Positions 27,390-45,693 of a stretch of 64,000 nucleotides of DNA are shown piece after piece. The DNA is taken from positions 1-64,000 of the forward strand of contig NZ_AAEW02000019.1 in assembly GCF_000167355.1 (NCBI RefSeq), written 5' to 3'. The stretch comes from Desulfuromonas acetoxidans DSM 684. Lineage in GTDB: Bacteria; Desulfobacterota; Desulfuromonadia; Desulfuromonadales; Desulfuromonadaceae. The number at the start of each line of letters is the position of its first letter. Position 1 is the first letter of the stretch. A model generated the notes under the pieces. It saw only the letters and a program-made list of their open reading frames with translations. It had not been told where the DNA came from and made no database searches. The translations under genes were made by a program, and so were the position numbers.

Positions 27390-27429
27390 GGGTTCTCTCC
27401 GTTGTTGCAGGTGAACAATCATCGCTCAT
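27382..27429 (-). CDS. Possible 15-codon leader peptide overlapping the aor start
   Basis: ATG at 27429 follows GGAAAGGAGATTTCC, whose arms GGAAA and TTTCC can fold around the AGGAG. The frame reads MSDDCSPATTERTHG and stops at TAA just inside aor (the aor ATG lies within it). This would couple aor translation to a short upstream frame. It could be chance. Confidence 0.35.
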   Translation of the reverse strand: MSDDCSPATTERTHG

Positions 27430-27452
27430 GGCGGAAATCTCCTTTCCAAACA

Positions 27453-27530
27453 TGGGGGGCGATACCGTTTCCGGGACCACCTGGCGGCCGGACCACCATG
27501 ATCACGCTCGTAGGTGGTAGCGGCTCGGAG
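27453..27530 (-). ncRNA. Candidate molybdenum/tungsten cofactor (Moco/Tuco) riboswitch in the aor leader
   Basis: The leader reads, 5' to 3', CTCCGAGCCG, then ACCACC ... GGTGGT as a stem, then CCGGCCGCCAGGTGG and CCCGGAAACGG followed by CGCC. These are the pieces I recall as conserved in the Moco RNA motif. The downstream gene is a W-pterin enzyme whose operon includes cofactor genes, as expected. The ACCACC arm can pair with either of two GGTGGT copies, suggesting alternative folds. An upstream 8-base stem CTCAATCG/CGATTGAG (27573-27546) might be part of the element. Recognition is from memory, without a covariance search. Confidence 0.55.
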
Positions 27531-27803
27531 ATTTAAGGGCTGGTCTCAATCGGCGGCCCCTGATCTGGAGTGCGATTGAGAACACCCCCTAAGACCACGA
27601 GGTGTCAATAACTCAGCACAGGGCCGTCAAATGAACCAATGCTGGACGAGGTAAAAACGCAAAGACTGTACCAACCACTTTATCAGGGATGTTCGAAGAG
27701 GCAATAGTATGGCTAAACTATCGAAATAAGGTATTTTATTCGCAGTAAGGGTGGTTGCGGTGTCGAGTGGGAGAATAGGGAAACTGTGCCGTTCTGAAAC
27801 AGG

Positions 27804-41581: not shown

Positions 41582-41629
41582 TAACCAAAAATATCCACAT
41601 TGAAATGTGGACGTCATATTGGATCACGG

Positions 41630-41810
41630 TGCCCAACGGGAGCTTAAATGTCTCGTGAGGCTTGATAGGGAAGAGGGGTGCAACTCCCCCGCGGACCCGC
41701 CGCTGTAAACGTGGACAACAGGCTCCATGCCACTGGTTTCGACCGGGAAGGCGCCTGAAGGATGAAGCGTAAGCCAGAAGACCTGCCTGATCCCAACACT
41801 CAATGATTCC
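41630..41810 (+). ncRNA. Cobalamin riboswitch in the nrdD leader
   Basis: The core motifs of the AdoCbl riboswitch are readable in order: GGGAAGAGGGGTGCAACTCC, CGCCGCTGT, CCGGGAAGGCGC, and the B12-box AAGCCAGAAGACCTGCC (41770-41786). The aptamer leads to a strong terminator hairpin 60-80 bases downstream, so control is probably by transcription attenuation. Repression of a B12-independent (class III) reductase by cobalamin is a known pattern. Confidence 0.92.
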
Positions 41811-41952: not shown

Positions 41953-43977
41953 ATGCCAGAGACCGAACACGCCCACCAGCTTGCCAGTGTCGTATTACCC
42001 GCCAAAGTCGTGAAACGCGATGGCACCAGTGTGCCGTTTGACAGCGAACGAATTCGCTTTGCTATTGCCCGTGCCGGTAAAGTGACCGGTGAATTCGATG
42101 AGAGTGAAGCCGCTCTGCTCACCCAGCAGACCCTTAAGGTGTTGCGCCACCGTTTTCCGTTTCAGGCTCCCAAGGTTGAACAGATTCAGGATGTGGTCGA
42201 GCAGACGCTGATCTCCGCCAACCATTTTGCCACGCTGCGTGCCTATGTGGTCTATCGTGAGCAGCATCAGAAACTGCGTCAGGACCAGAAAACCGTGGTC
42301 GATGTGGCGTCGTCGATCAATGAATATCTTGATCAGTCGGACTGGCGGGTCAATGCCAACGCCAATCAGGGCTATTCGCTCGGCGGGCTGATCCTCAATA
42401 TCTCCGGCAAAGTCACGGCCAACTACTGGCTGAACCACGTCTATGCCCCGGAACTGGGCGAGGCGCACCGTGACGGCAGTCTGCATGTTCACGATCTCGA
42501 TATGCTGTCCGGCTACTGCGCCGGTTGGTCGCTGCGGATGCTGTTGCAGGAAGGCTTTAACGGTGTGCCGGGCAAGGTGGAAGCGGCTCCGCCACGCCAC
42601 CTGTCCAGCGTCATCGGTCAGATCGTCAACTTTCTCGGTACGTTGCAGAACGAATGGGCCGGAGCCCAGGCGTTCAGCTCGTTTGATACCTATCTGGCCG
42701 CGTTCGTGCGCAAGGACAACCTGAGTTACGACGAGGTCAAACAGCAGATGCAGGAGTTGATCTTCAACCTCAACGTGCCGTCGCGCTGGGGCACGCAGAC
42801 CCCGTTCACCAACCTGACCTTTGACTGGACCTGCCCGGATGATCTGAAAACCCAGGTGCCGGTGATCGGTGGCGAGGAGATGCCGTTTACCTACGGTGAA
42901 TTGCAGGACGAGATGGATCTGATCAACCGCGCCTACATTGAGGTGATGACCAATGGCGATGACAAGGGGCGGGTGTTCACCTTTCCCATCCCCACCTACA
43001 ACATGACGCCGGATTTTCCGTGGGAGAGCGAAAACGCCGAGCGGCTGTTCAGCATGACCGCCAAGTACGGCCTGCCGTATTTCCAGAATTTCCTCAATTC
43101 GGAGCTGCAACCCAACATGGTGCGCTCCATGTGCTGCCGCTTACAGCTCGACTTGCGCGAACTGCTCAAACGCGGCAATGGTCTGTTCGGTTCCGCCGAG
43201 CAGACCGGTTCCATCGGTGTGGTCACCATCAACTGCGCCCGTCTTGGTTATCAGTTTGCCGGGGATGAGGCCGGATTGCTCGCCCGTCTTGACGAACTTC
43301 TTGAATTGGCGCGCACCAGCCTGGAAGTCAAACGCAAAACCATTCAGCGTCAGATGGATCAGGGCCTGTTCCCCTACACGCGACGGTATCTCGGCACCCT
43401 GCGCAACCATTTCTCCACCATCGGTGTCAATGGTCTTAACGAGATGATCCGCAACTTCACAGATGATCAGGACAACATCACCAGCGAACAGGGCCAGCTG
43501 TTTGCCATCCGTTTTATGGATCACGTGCGGCAACGCATGGTGGAATATCAGGAACAGACCGGCCACATGTACAACCTCGAAGCCACGCCAGCAGAAGGCA
43601 CTACCTACCGCTTTGCCCGCGAGGATAAAAAGCGTTTCCCGGATATGATCCAGGCCGGAACAACCGATGCGCCGTTTTACACCAACTCATCGCAACTGCC
43701 GGTCGGCTTCAGCGATGATCCGTTCGAAGCGCTGGAGCTGCAGGAAACCCTGCAACGCAAATACACCGGCGGCACCGTGTTTCACATGTACATGGGCGAG
43801 CCTATCGGTAGCCCCGAAGCCTGCCGAAAGCTGGTCAGACGGGTGCTGGAAAATTACCGCATCCCCTATTTGACCATTACGCCGACATTCTCCATCTGCC
43901 CGAAACACGGCTATCTGGCTGGAGAGCATCCGTTTTGTCCGCTGTGTGATGAGGAGTTAGCGCAAGCGAACAGTTAA
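41953..43977 (+). CDS. nrdD: Anaerobic ribonucleoside-triphosphate reductase (class III), main part lacking the glycyl-radical loop
   Basis: 674 residues. ATP-cone N-terminal domain (VVKRDGTSVPFDSERIRFAI) and the 10-stranded barrel with MCCRLQLD, IGVVTINCARLGY. The C-terminus reaches the zinc site (SICPKHGYLAGEHPFCPLC) and then stops at QANS. In ordinary NrdD the chain continues through a short linker into the glycyl-radical motif RVMGYHRP, which is missing here and is encoded about 700 bases downstream (44678-44836). Start at 41953 follows AAGGAGCAG. Reduces NTPs to dNTPs in anaerobes; activated by NrdG. Confidence 0.9.
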   Translation: MPETEHAHQLASVVLPAKVVKRDGTSVPFDSERIRFAIARAGKVTGEFDESEAALLTQQTLKVLRHRFPFQAPKVEQIQDVVEQTLISANHFATLRAYVVYREQHQKLRQDQKTVVDVASSINEYLDQSDWRVNANANQGYSLGGLILNISGKVTANYWLNHVYAPELGEAHRDGSLHVHDLDMLSGYCAGWSLRMLLQEGFNGVPGKVEAAPPRHLSSVIGQIVNFLGTLQNEWAGAQAFSSFDTYLAAFVRKDNLSYDEVKQQMQELIFNLNVPSRWGTQTPFTNLTFDWTCPDDLKTQVPVIGGEEMPFTYGELQDEMDLINRAYIEVMTNGDDKGRVFTFPIPTYNMTPDFPWESENAERLFSMTAKYGLPYFQNFLNSELQPNMVRSMCCRLQLDLRELLKRGNGLFGSAEQTGSIGVVTINCARLGYQFAGDEAGLLARLDELLELARTSLEVKRKTIQRQMDQGLFPYTRRYLGTLRNHFSTIGVNGLNEMIRNFTDDQDNITSEQGQLFAIRFMDHVRQRMVEYQEQTGHMYNLEATPAEGTTYRFAREDKKRFPDMIQAGTTDAPFYTNSSQLPVGFSDDPFEALELQETLQRKYTGGTVFHMYMGEPIGSPEACRKLVRRVLENYRIPYLTITPTFSICPKHGYLAGEHPFCPLCDEELAQANS

Positions 43978-43984
43978 ATTGTCT

Positions 43985-44635
43985 GTTGAGGGAAGGGCGT
44001 CAATGCAACGACATCCGTTCGCGATGTTGGTACGCACGTGACGTGGGCTTCCGCGCCCACACGTCGGGCCACATTTTGCGTCGACAAAAGTGGCGCAAAA
44101 TCGACTCCCAAGGGGCTGTCATCAATCAGACTTCACGAAGTTGTTGCAGATCTTTTTCACGTCAGCAGCGTTATCGGTCGTCGCCATAGAATCACTATGG
44201 CTCCTCCCTCTGCCTTGCTGACGCAAAAAATTTCAAGCAACACCTCTCGTTCACCTGATCAATAACAACCCCAATGCGCCCTACGGGTTCCCTCGGTGCT
44301 AAGCTGGAGGGCTGGGGTGCAAAATAACCCACAGGCGTAGGGCGGGCACCGTCCCGCCCGTTAGATCGGTGCCACACCAGAGATAAAGAAAGACGAAAGA
44401 GCGTTATCACGGTTTTACGCCAAGGATGATGAGTCGCACGATTCGTCGACCTAAAGGGCGGCGAGCCGGATAAGCAAAGCATCACGGAAATCGACTCAGT
44501 GTCGGTGAATCCAGGTTCAGGAGAAGTTCAGCCGGTTTTTGCATCCTTTTGAGCGGCAAGTCAAAAGGATGTCGCCTGCCGGGGCGAATCCCGGCGACCC
44601 TGACCTTGACTTAGATCTTGGCCTTGAGACTGTGA
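43985..44635 (-). repeat. Modular intergenic repeat array 5 (inverted, inside the nrdD linker)
   Basis: One long-form unit in reverse orientation: 44035-44110 contains the GTCGACG hairpin (CCACATTTTG-cgtcgac-AAAAGTGG), 44110-44270 the extra block seen also at 12020-12185, then the CGGGCACCGTCCCGCCCG hairpin (44342-44360), the TTATCACGGTTTTACGC box (44404-44420), and the hairpin CATCCTTTTGA / TCAAAAGGATG (44542-44571). It lies exactly between the end of nrdD and the separate glycyl-radical ORF. Confidence 0.85.
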
Positions 44636-44677
44636 ACTTAAACAAAAGAACACAACAAACAACAAAGGAGCCAAACC

Positions 44678-44836
44678 ATGAAAGAAAACCAAAATCAGAT
44701 CGATGACAGCCAACGCCAACCCTGCGAAGTTTGGACCCGCGTCATGGGCTACCACCGCCCGGTAAGTTCCTTCAACTCTGGCAAAAAGTCCGAACACCAG
44801 CAACGCTGCTTCTTCAACGAGGAACGCACCCGTTGA
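44678..44836 (+). CDS. Stand-alone glycyl-radical segment of NrdD
   Basis: 52 residues: a Lys/Asn/Gln-rich start (MKENQNQIDDSQRQ), then CEVWTRVMGYHRPVSSFNSG and KKSEHQQRCFFNEERTR. The RVMGYHRP loop contains the glycine that carries the radical in class III reductases, at residue 24. It has its own perfect binding site (AAAGGAG, seven bases before the ATG) and an in-frame stop upstream (44639-44641). The TGA overlaps the likely TTG start of nrdG. Either a functional trans-acting subunit or the remnant of a broken gene; the conserved sequence and binding site favour the first. Confidence 0.8.
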   Translation: MKENQNQIDDSQRQPCEVWTRVMGYHRPVSSFNSGKKSEHQQRCFFNEERTR

Positions 44837-45420
44837 GTTCCGCTTTACAGGTGGGCGGCCTGACCCGCTGCACCACCATCGATTTTCCCGGTGAACTGGC
44901 AGCAGTGGTCTATTGCCAGGGCTGTCCCTGGCATTGCCACTACTGCCACAATGCCGCACTGATCCCGGAGCAGGGCCAACAACAGCTCGATTGGCAACAG
45001 GTGGTGGCGTTCATCCAACAACGTCGCGGATTGCTCGACGGCATCGTGTTCAGCGGCGGTGAACCCACCGCGCAAACAGCGTTGATTGATGCCATGCACA
45101 CCGTCAAAGAGCTGGGCATGAAAGTGGCCCTGCATACCAATGGTGCGTATTCCGACCGCCTGCGGGCTCTGTTGCCGCTGTGCGACTGGGTGGGCATGGA
45201 CTTGAAAGCCCCGTTTGACGACTACGAAACGATCACCAAATGTCCCGCCAGTGGAGAACAGGCACGGCAAAGCGCGGAGCTGTTGCGCGCCAGTGGTGTG
45301 GCCCATCAGTTTCGTACCACAGTTGATCCGTGGTTGCGTGAAGAGGGTCGGTTAGAACAGATGCAAGCATTGGTGGAGTCGTGGGGAGAAACCCTGGTGC
45401 TGCAAACCATGCGCAGTTAA
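44833..45420 (+). CDS. nrdG: Anaerobic ribonucleotide reductase activating enzyme (radical SAM)
   Basis: 195 residues from a TTG at 44833 (TTGA overlap with the glycyl-radical ORF). The radical SAM cluster motif is CPWHCHYCHN, followed by GIVFSGGEPTAQ (SAM-binding GGE) and LKAPFDDYETITK. NrdG generates the radical on the NrdD glycine using SAM. A GTG at 44851 is an alternative start. The product is of usual length for the branch that accompanies NrdD in deltaproteobacteria (no extra ferredoxin domain). Confidence 0.9.
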   Translation: MSSALQVGGLTRCTTIDFPGELAAVVYCQGCPWHCHYCHNAALIPEQGQQQLDWQQVVAFIQQRRGLLDGIVFSGGEPTAQTALIDAMHTVKELGMKVALHTNGAYSDRLRALLPLCDWVGMDLKAPFDDYETITKCPASGEQARQSAELLRASGVAHQFRTTVDPWLREEGRLEQMQALVESWGETLVLQTMRS

Positions 45421-45454: not shown

Positions 45455-45660
45455 GGTAAGGAGGTGTGCAAACAAAACACATGAGGAGGCGGATCAAGCA
45501 TCCGCCAAGGCGAACAGGAAACGGAAGACGGTGAAAATCCGTCGCGGGCGCGCCGCTGTAACCGGCATAGATAATCCCCCTGCCACCACGGTTGATATCA
45601 ACCGGAAGGGCGCAGGATCACGGGAGCCGGAAGCCAGAAGACGTCCTGTTCACACACAAT
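45455..45660 (+). ncRNA. Cobalamin riboswitch in the metE leader
   Basis: Order of motifs: GGAAACGGAAGACGGTGAAA, ATCCGTCGCGGGCGCGCCGC TGTAACCGG (split across the junction), CCACCACGG, AACCGGAAGGGCGC and the box AGCCAGAAGAC. Vitamin B12 would repress metE when the B12-dependent enzyme MetH can work. The bases TCCTGT at the end of the aptamer (45644-45649) are complementary to ACAGGA (45680-45685), which contains the metE ribosome binding site, so translational control is likely. Confidence 0.92.
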
Positions 45661-45693
45661 CATTTGTCTCGCGTTTCAGACAGGAGAACGTCA

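Follow-up and report, generated by a model that had tools for sequence, protein, structure and literature searches.

To our knowledge, all studied NrdD enzymes, the class III ribonucleotide reductases (RNRs), carry their radical on the catalytic chain. Small glycyl-radical proteins that serve a large partner are known from another enzyme, pyruvate formate-lyase (PFL), of which GrcA/YfiD and T4 Y06I are spare parts; the accessible text of the paper concerned names two validated spare parts only, both for PFL, and allows that others may exist (PMC8683613). RNR catalytic chains encoded as two genes have also been described, namely the class II pair NrdJa/NrdJb (PMC9669993 and PMC4520616, in their accessible parts) and NrdA-a/b of phage Aeh1, which was split by a homing endonuclease and is reported to be still functional (PMC3653736). 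The accessible part of the last source further mentions fragmented phage nrdD genes, in Lactococcus phage 949 (an intron) and in phiAS4 (unexplained). By analogy, GrcA/Y06I would be the closest known functional model, and NrdJa/NrdJb and NrdA-a/b the closest known architectural models, for the nrdD locus of Desulfuromonas acetoxidans DSM 684 that we analyse here. This locus lies in a stretch of 64,000 nucleotides (nt), contig NZ_AAEW02000019.1, positions 1 to 64,000 of the forward strand (assembly GCF_000167355.1), which we call the window and whose positions are used below unless another locus is named. The enzyme it encodes is very probably a class III reductase of two subunits, in which the glycyl radical belongs to a chain of its own, one also supplied by phages.

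The large gene of the locus (nrdD, 41953–43977, plus strand) encodes an ATP-cone (PF03477, E 2e-21) and the catalytic NRDD domain, scores above the cut-offs of both NF006126 and TIGR02487, and matches positions 2–529 of the 562 positions of PF13597 (E 4e-176 in a Pfam scan). Its product contains a complete zinc motif, CPKH..CPLC, with all four ligands (43897–43947, plus strand), and ends ...SICPKHGYLAGEHPFCPLCDEELAQANS before a TAA, without the glycyl-radical loop. The loop resides instead in a separate open reading frame (ORF) of 52 codons on the same strand (44678–44836; MKENQNQIDDSQRQPCEVWTRVMGYHRPVSSFNSGKKSEHQQRCFFNEERTR), in which the motif RVMGYHRP aligns with the C-terminal loop of the NrdD models and places the predicted radical glycine at residue 24 (codon 44747–44749). 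This small ORF matches positions 531–561 of PF13597 (E 1.4e-8, above the curated cut-off), so that the two ORFs tile the model without overlap; against TIGR02487 it aligns at positions 550–578 and, because it is a fragment, stays under the whole-protein cut-off. PF13597 was its only match in a Pfam scan at E-values up to 10, with no match to a PFL-type glycyl-radical domain. Seven nt ahead of its ATG stands a ribosome-binding site, AAAGGAG (44664–44670, plus strand), and its TGA stop overlaps the TTG start of nrdG (44833–45420, plus strand), which encodes the dedicated radical S-adenosylmethionine (SAM) activase (TIGR02495, NrdG2, 193 bits, above cut-off). From the nrdD stop to the start of the small gene there are 700 nt, and a promoter scan of this gap found none. 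The initial annotation of the window, made from the letters alone, had described an nrdD that ends after its zinc motif, with the loop in a 52-codon ORF bearing this ribosome-binding site and this overlap with nrdG; sequence and family scans confirm it on each count, and the two ORFs do together cover the NRDD family model.

The locus thus compares with the described systems as follows. One-piece NrdD (PF13597, TIGR02487; structures 8p2s, 4u3e and 1h7a) shares the body, ATP-cone, zinc site, loop sequence and NrdG, but there the loop is on the same chain, whereas here it is a separate gene product acting in trans and the reductase is not a single polypeptide. NrdJa/NrdJb and NrdA-a/b are likewise RNR catalytic chains encoded as two genes, but, as far as their accessible descriptions go, they belong to other classes, are cut at another joint and in neither case separate a glycyl-radical loop. 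The nrdD genes of phiAS4 and phage 949 are also in pieces, with no conserved separate glycyl-loop gene invoked in the accessible account. GrcA and Y06I, as their accessible description has it, resemble the small subunit in being small glycyl-radical-domain proteins that are activated and docked on a large partner, and one of the two is phage-encoded; PFL, however, keeps its own loop until it is cut by O2, whereas the large chain of the window never has one. Within the open-access literature, subscription papers and preprints being outside the scope, we found no published description of a split NrdD with a separate glycyl-loop gene, and the accessible text of PMC11528403, PMC9531940, PMC4390871, PMC1524935, PMC3019208, PMC12386605, PMC12288474, PMC2795772, PMC3543383 and PMC7762298 contains no such report.

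Sequence comparison of the small gene, over its conserved core of 34 codons (102 nt), indicates that it is maintained as a protein. Between the window and its congener G008 there are 10 differences, 10 of 10 at third codon positions; with G007 there are 5, again all at third positions; and with G011, from another genus, 14 of the 16 differences are at third positions. The ratio of non-synonymous to synonymous rates (dN/dS, NG86) is 0–0.07 in the six pairs involving the window small gene and at most 0.28 in the remaining pairs with computable dS. The small gene is under strong purifying selection, which leads us to reject the ORF as a pseudogene and, together with the ribosome-binding site, bears out the proposal that the C-terminal piece is a gene of its own. 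The arrangement recurs in three further genomes of the genus, and since two of these are single-contig, an assembly error is very unlikely.

Both large NrdD chains found in the D. acetoxidans genome lack the loop. The second nrdD, on contig C22, encodes a large chain that is 50% identical to that of the window and ends ...GEHFSCPHDHNDQAA (locus L001); in frame behind its single TAA follows its own 46-codon ORF (MSSKCQQKTEVYSRVCGFFRPVQQWNKGKQEEF...), and then an ORF resembling NrdG. Here the cut falls inside the zinc motif: three ligands are on the large chain, and a Cys of the small chain stands five residues ahead of an EVY motif, at what an alignment of relatives shows to be the place of the fourth ligand in one-piece NrdD. 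The genome also encodes a class I/II-type RNR large subunit (a PF02867 match), which from its sequence we take to be class II NrdJ. As regards the other enzymes that the initial annotation had thought might stand in for the locus, a class I/II-type RNR is therefore present, but the second nrdD is also split.

The split extends well beyond this genome. Matches were obtained in 53 of 58 relatives and in 82 of 88 genomes of the order Desulfuromonadales with at least 90% completeness; the main-body matches listed in these two scans end near position 525–535 or run through 1–5 stop codons, some being partial, and the small-piece rows of the order scan were likewise taken from among the matches listed. 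The sole stop-free full-length NrdD among the matches listed for the order is on contig 2 of G051 and corresponds in place to the NrdD on plasmid pGSUB1 of Geoalkalibacter subterraneus. When 31 nrdD loci of the order, the window's and the best-scoring fetched ones, were translated directly, 30 were split and that on G051 contig 2 was the exception. Nearly every nrdD found in the order is split, and the same split does occur in related genomes, as the initial annotation had suggested looking for. A collection of named genomes gave 72 split, 3 one-piece and 5 orphan loci among the best 80 of 539, a sample that favours splits because it was found with a split-type peptide; its matches include Geothermobacter hydrogeniphilus, Desulfuromusa kysingii and Malonomonas rubra, all three of which possess both genes, and Lentisphaerota/Victivallis, FCPU426 and Goldiibacteriota records. 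Across 148 genomes of the phylum, 96 had a match and most bodies among the matches listed were in one piece; splits occurred, besides the own order, in families f32, f34, f47, f59 and f82. Splits were called by stop-to-stop translation and profile searches, by which pieces at contig ends can be miscalled; L068, called an orphan, sits at a contig edge. E. coli-like NrdD can also be split before the loop (TRRITGYLVGTLDRFNNAKRAEE; L058, L061, L233 and L254), in one Lentisphaeria genome a single nrdD is followed by a tandem pair of small glycyl-radical genes (L136, 6013–6301), and long nrdD frames with intein-like inserts, some of them also split at the loop, are seen at L234 and in G118, G145, G168, G092 and G176.

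The gap between the two window genes holds a copy of a dispersed repeat element (about 44012–44620, strand not given), and the gap sequence has 118 matches in the genome, itself included; the repeat noted between the ORFs in the initial annotation is thus real. Its further proposal, that the element entered the linker and so created the split, is contradicted by the relatives. The element lies in the same gap of congeners G002, G007 and G008 at 87–96% identity, with stop-to-start distances of 556, 695 and 810 nt, respectively, and as an element in an nrdD gap it was found only in the genus of the window. G011 and G068, the latter from another family, have the same kind of split in a gap without an element match, the large and small genes overlapping by 8 nt in G011 and by 4 nt in G068. 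Because these genomes share the split without the element and with overlapping genes, the split predates the element, which is ruled out as its maker and most simply entered an already existing gene boundary. Of the earlier interpretation, the separate glycyl-radical gene is supported and a two-subunit NrdD remains the best reading; the element-made split is not supported.

Statistics over 97 distinct split pairs (L066 and L108 counted, although their large chains have masked stretches, in L108 in the tail) show a single RNR chain divided between two adjacent genes. Relative to the large gene, the small one is in frame 0, 1 or 2 in 34, 20 and 43 pairs. A ribosome-binding motif precedes it in 90 of the 97, compared with 12.7% before any ATG in these loci, and a radical-SAM-like CxxxCxxC motif occurs within 900 nt downstream in 88. 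Stop-to-start distances range from a 46-nt overlap to 810 nt: 5 pairs overlap, 69 lie within 100 nt, 19 at 101–300 nt and 4 beyond, all four of the window type. Between in-frame pairs there are from one to five stops, TAA, TGA and TAG all being represented, and selenocysteine or other recoding at the nrdD stop is thereby ruled out as a general account.

Phylogenetic analysis, based on two 'quick' tree searches, suggests that the split arose more than once at the same joint. On a tree of 90 rows, one-piece versus split requires 7 state changes, and the window type forms a single clade of six rows with full support. A second tree, of 55 rows, omitted the four E. coli-like rows of the first along with twelve others and had the common form thinned to 17; it was used for approximately unbiased tests (p-AU). 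These rejected a single clade of all splits (p-AU 3.4e-5) as well as clades uniting the order's common form with the window type (1.9e-5) or with Lentisphaerota (8.3e-7), 'the order's common form' here including one rumen, one FCPU426 and one Goldiibacteriota row. Under the tree model, the split has thus arisen repeatedly. The f32 pairs (L059, L060 and L253), whose large and small genes overlap by 31–46 nt, have extra charged helix-like stretches on both halves at the cut; judged from sequence, these could pair and hold the halves together.

How the zinc site is distributed over the two chains differs among the split forms. Ligands were counted in 93 parsed pairs, which include related and hence not independent sequences; four further E. 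coli-like pairs were not parsed. The common form (type 1), to which C22 conforms, is defined by the small-chain Cys five residues before EVY, and only its pairing with absence from the large chain is informative: 75 of 81 pairs have a large chain without the fourth Cys and a small chain with it at the same spacing, and 6 have it on both. In the window type, all four ligands are on the large chain and none on the small (6 of 6 pairs); the f32 type likewise has a large chain with all four and a small chain without (3 of 3); and in the f47/f82 pairs the fourth Cys is on neither chain, with a His nearby (3 of 3). Because the fourth ligand is on the small subunit in the commonest form, the zinc site there would be shared and probably staples the two chains together. 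In 64 of the 81 common-form pairs (for example, L006–L033), Ala-Ala is the terminus of the large chain; one might guess at a docking end or at a protease signal.

The small piece is also found without a large one. A third copy in D. acetoxidans, an orphan of 45 residues on contig C7 (L003, L236), belongs to a Mu-like prophage that has MuB, Gam, terminase and portal matches. GemA and Gam genes are close by, and over 10,143 nt the surroundings of this copy agree with an IMG/VR record at 100% identity. A search of virus sequences with a split-type peptide, of which the best 80 of 116 relatives in 78 records were considered, identified a one-piece NrdD in 4 records; whole-record searches of the remaining 74 found an NrdD body in one (G243, about 69 kb away), leaving 73 of 78 with a small piece and no NrdD body. 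Two of the 73 have an in-frame TAA where relatives have Gln (L145, 6022–6126; L146, 5507–5611), and would be either broken copies or genes read in a changed genetic code. Mu-like transposition genes occur at 11 of the 80 viral loci; a separate set of 9–11 loci has in common several gene clusters, with representatives matching RusA, AAA_24, a helicase and DUF3799, and an SSB cluster is common to four loci. The zinc-type Cys is present in 56 of the 79 viral pieces as called; 7 have a Cys adjoining EVY, 14 have neither and 2 were unparsed. Phage copies whose loop was displayed retain the glycine and the residues on either side of it, and 11 pairs of phage or prophage small genes differ by 113 changes, of which 81 fall at third positions. 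Three phage loci could be matched to a host genome, in each case a member of the order (L156 to G000, L160 to G026 and L143 to G029). The gut phage record MT835493 was rejected as a carrier of a split piece, because its NrdD (L261, 4018–6447) is in one piece; this NrdD terminates in a glutaredoxin-like domain, and the gene after it resembles thioredoxin reductase. PHROG family phrog_4132 (179 positions, function unknown) matches the window small ORF at positions 117–154 (E 1.8e-9) and is perhaps, by this resemblance, another stand-alone glycyl-loop protein.

Free-standing loop proteins of another kind occur in G123, G149 and G173, members of one family (f53) and 3 of the 148 phylum genomes, which encode a one-piece nrdD together with stand-alone proteins of about 103–123 residues. 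The N-terminal part of these proteins is conserved, their terminal loop resembles that of one-piece NrdD, and in NCBIfam they match NrdD models. Four virus records contain relatives, the whole set comprising L243, L256, L257, L258 and L274–L277; other matches to the stand-alone query were partial, mostly ends of long NrdD frames or split small genes. Their layout, which resembles that of GrcA, makes them possible NrdD spare parts.

For a structural view, we modelled the pair of a relative, L126, whose two genes are naturally in frame, as the one chain that results when its single TGA is read through; the small chain comprises residues 669–720. The model has a predicted local distance difference test score (pLDDT) of 83 and a predicted template modelling score (pTM) of 0.77. 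Its best solved match, 8p2s_B (Z 34.5, root mean square deviation (rmsd) 2.7, 562 aligned), spans model residues 91–708 and hence reaches into the small chain, ranges being those between the first and last aligned residue; 4u3e_B follows (Z 31.2, rmsd 3.0, residues 98–710), then 1h7a (Z 30.6), and some other matches have an rmsd above 7 or end at residue 635. The model is compatible with docking of the loop and is not proof of binding. In the mechanism that we propose for the window locus, the large NrdD body (ATP-cone, NrdD barrel and zinc site) and the 52-residue glycyl-loop subunit would together form the enzyme. NrdG would install the radical on the small subunit, which would dock in the barrel at the place of the loop in one-piece NrdD and hand the radical on to the active-site cysteine. 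It is the loop that O2 destroys, and a separate small subunit could therefore be replaced alone, without remaking the large chain. Phages that carry the small subunit by itself may keep the host NrdD active for their own replication.

Several observations weigh against this account. The fourth Cys is in neither chain in 3 of the 93 pairs and in both in 6. A class I/II-type large subunit is encoded in all 88 order genomes searched, and because of this the split NrdD need not be essential. In the L126 model, the small part has a pLDDT of 63–74 (residues 671–710), the linker 43 and the end 34, and the use of a single read-through chain favours docking by tethering. On the 90-row tree, no more than 2 changes are forced by the starred branches, the clades for the p-AU tests were named after the first tree had been seen, and virus records may be fragments whose NrdD is located elsewhere. 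The class I/II-type RNR, along with the repeat between the two pieces, would also suit an nrdD broken by the element and dead, its small ORF a decaying remnant and NrdJ doing the work; yet the small ORF is under purifying selection, has a ribosome-binding site and overlaps nrdG, the same split is element-free in G011 and G068, and the arrangement is kept across the order, all of which makes such decay extremely improbable. Nor do we give much credence to the idea that recoding, ribosome bypassing, RNA splicing or protein trans-splicing joins the ORFs in a single chain. The C22 small ORF in frame behind a single TAA, and the intein-like inserts elsewhere in nrdD of some relatives, would agree with it, but the spread of frames (34/20/43), the ribosome-binding motif in 90 of 97 pairs, distances from a 46-nt overlap to 810 nt, the varying number and kind of stops among in-frame pairs and the small genes that stand alone in phages make it highly improbable.

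Two further explanations concern what the small protein does. It might be only a spare part, as GrcA is, or a regulator, and not a constant subunit; free-standing phage copies and the NrdD-type loop proteins of about 103–123 residues in three genomes with one-piece nrdD would be in keeping with this. A partner of GrcA type is complete without the small protein, whereas both large chains of this genome are loopless, and the window enzyme would have no radical site without its small chain. We consider a role as spare part or regulator alone very unlikely at this locus, where the small piece would be a required subunit, and not a spare, because the large one has no loop; as regards mechanism, the GrcA analogy drawn in the initial annotation is apt. 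The spare-part reading can hold for the phage and f53 copies and is compatible with a constant subunit at the window locus. The phage pieces could, alternatively, be decoys that block host NrdD or NrdG, which would fit with the 73 of 78 records in which no partner body was detected; however, glycine and flanks are kept in the displayed copies, change is mostly at third positions, and several pieces adjoin phage replication or recombination genes, where more deoxyribonucleoside triphosphate (dNTP) would help, and we regard decoys as unlikely. The two-subunit reductase thus remains the preferred reading, and sequence comparisons suggest a stable architecture that recurs: almost all nrdD genes found in the order have it, and it would have more than one origin at the same joint.

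Taken more broadly, class III RNR may have been repeatedly cut just ahead of the glycyl loop, so that its O2-labile radical site became an exchangeable cartridge, held in the commonest form by a zinc site that both chains share; phages of several kinds would bring this cartridge by itself and plug it into host NrdD to drive or revive dNTP synthesis, with the proteins of about 103 residues in one one-piece group as a GrcA counterpart; to this wider proposal we assign roughly even chances. With a natural two-chain NrdD, one could prepare, label, exchange and repair the radical piece independently of the large chain, and radical installation by NrdG and radical transfer would thereby become directly testable. 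It would also bear on the question, left by the accessible text of PMC8683613, whether further spare parts exist. Among auxiliary metabolic genes, one for a phage RNR subunit of about 45 residues would be very small and easily missed by gene callers.

Upstream of the window nrdD lies a cobalamin riboswitch (41609–41804, plus strand; Rfam RF00174, 99.4 bits, E 1.2e-23). B12-elements ahead of nrdDG in Desulfuromonas have been described, with the proposal that B12 represses nrdDG in favour of NrdJ; the accessible text of that report does not mention a split nrdD (PMC545781). The riboswitch found here fits the proposal. A second cobalamin riboswitch (45478–45664) precedes a gene resembling B12-independent methionine synthase (metE), and a molybdenum/tungsten cofactor riboswitch is located on the minus strand at 27423–27542 (RF01055, 59.6 bits).

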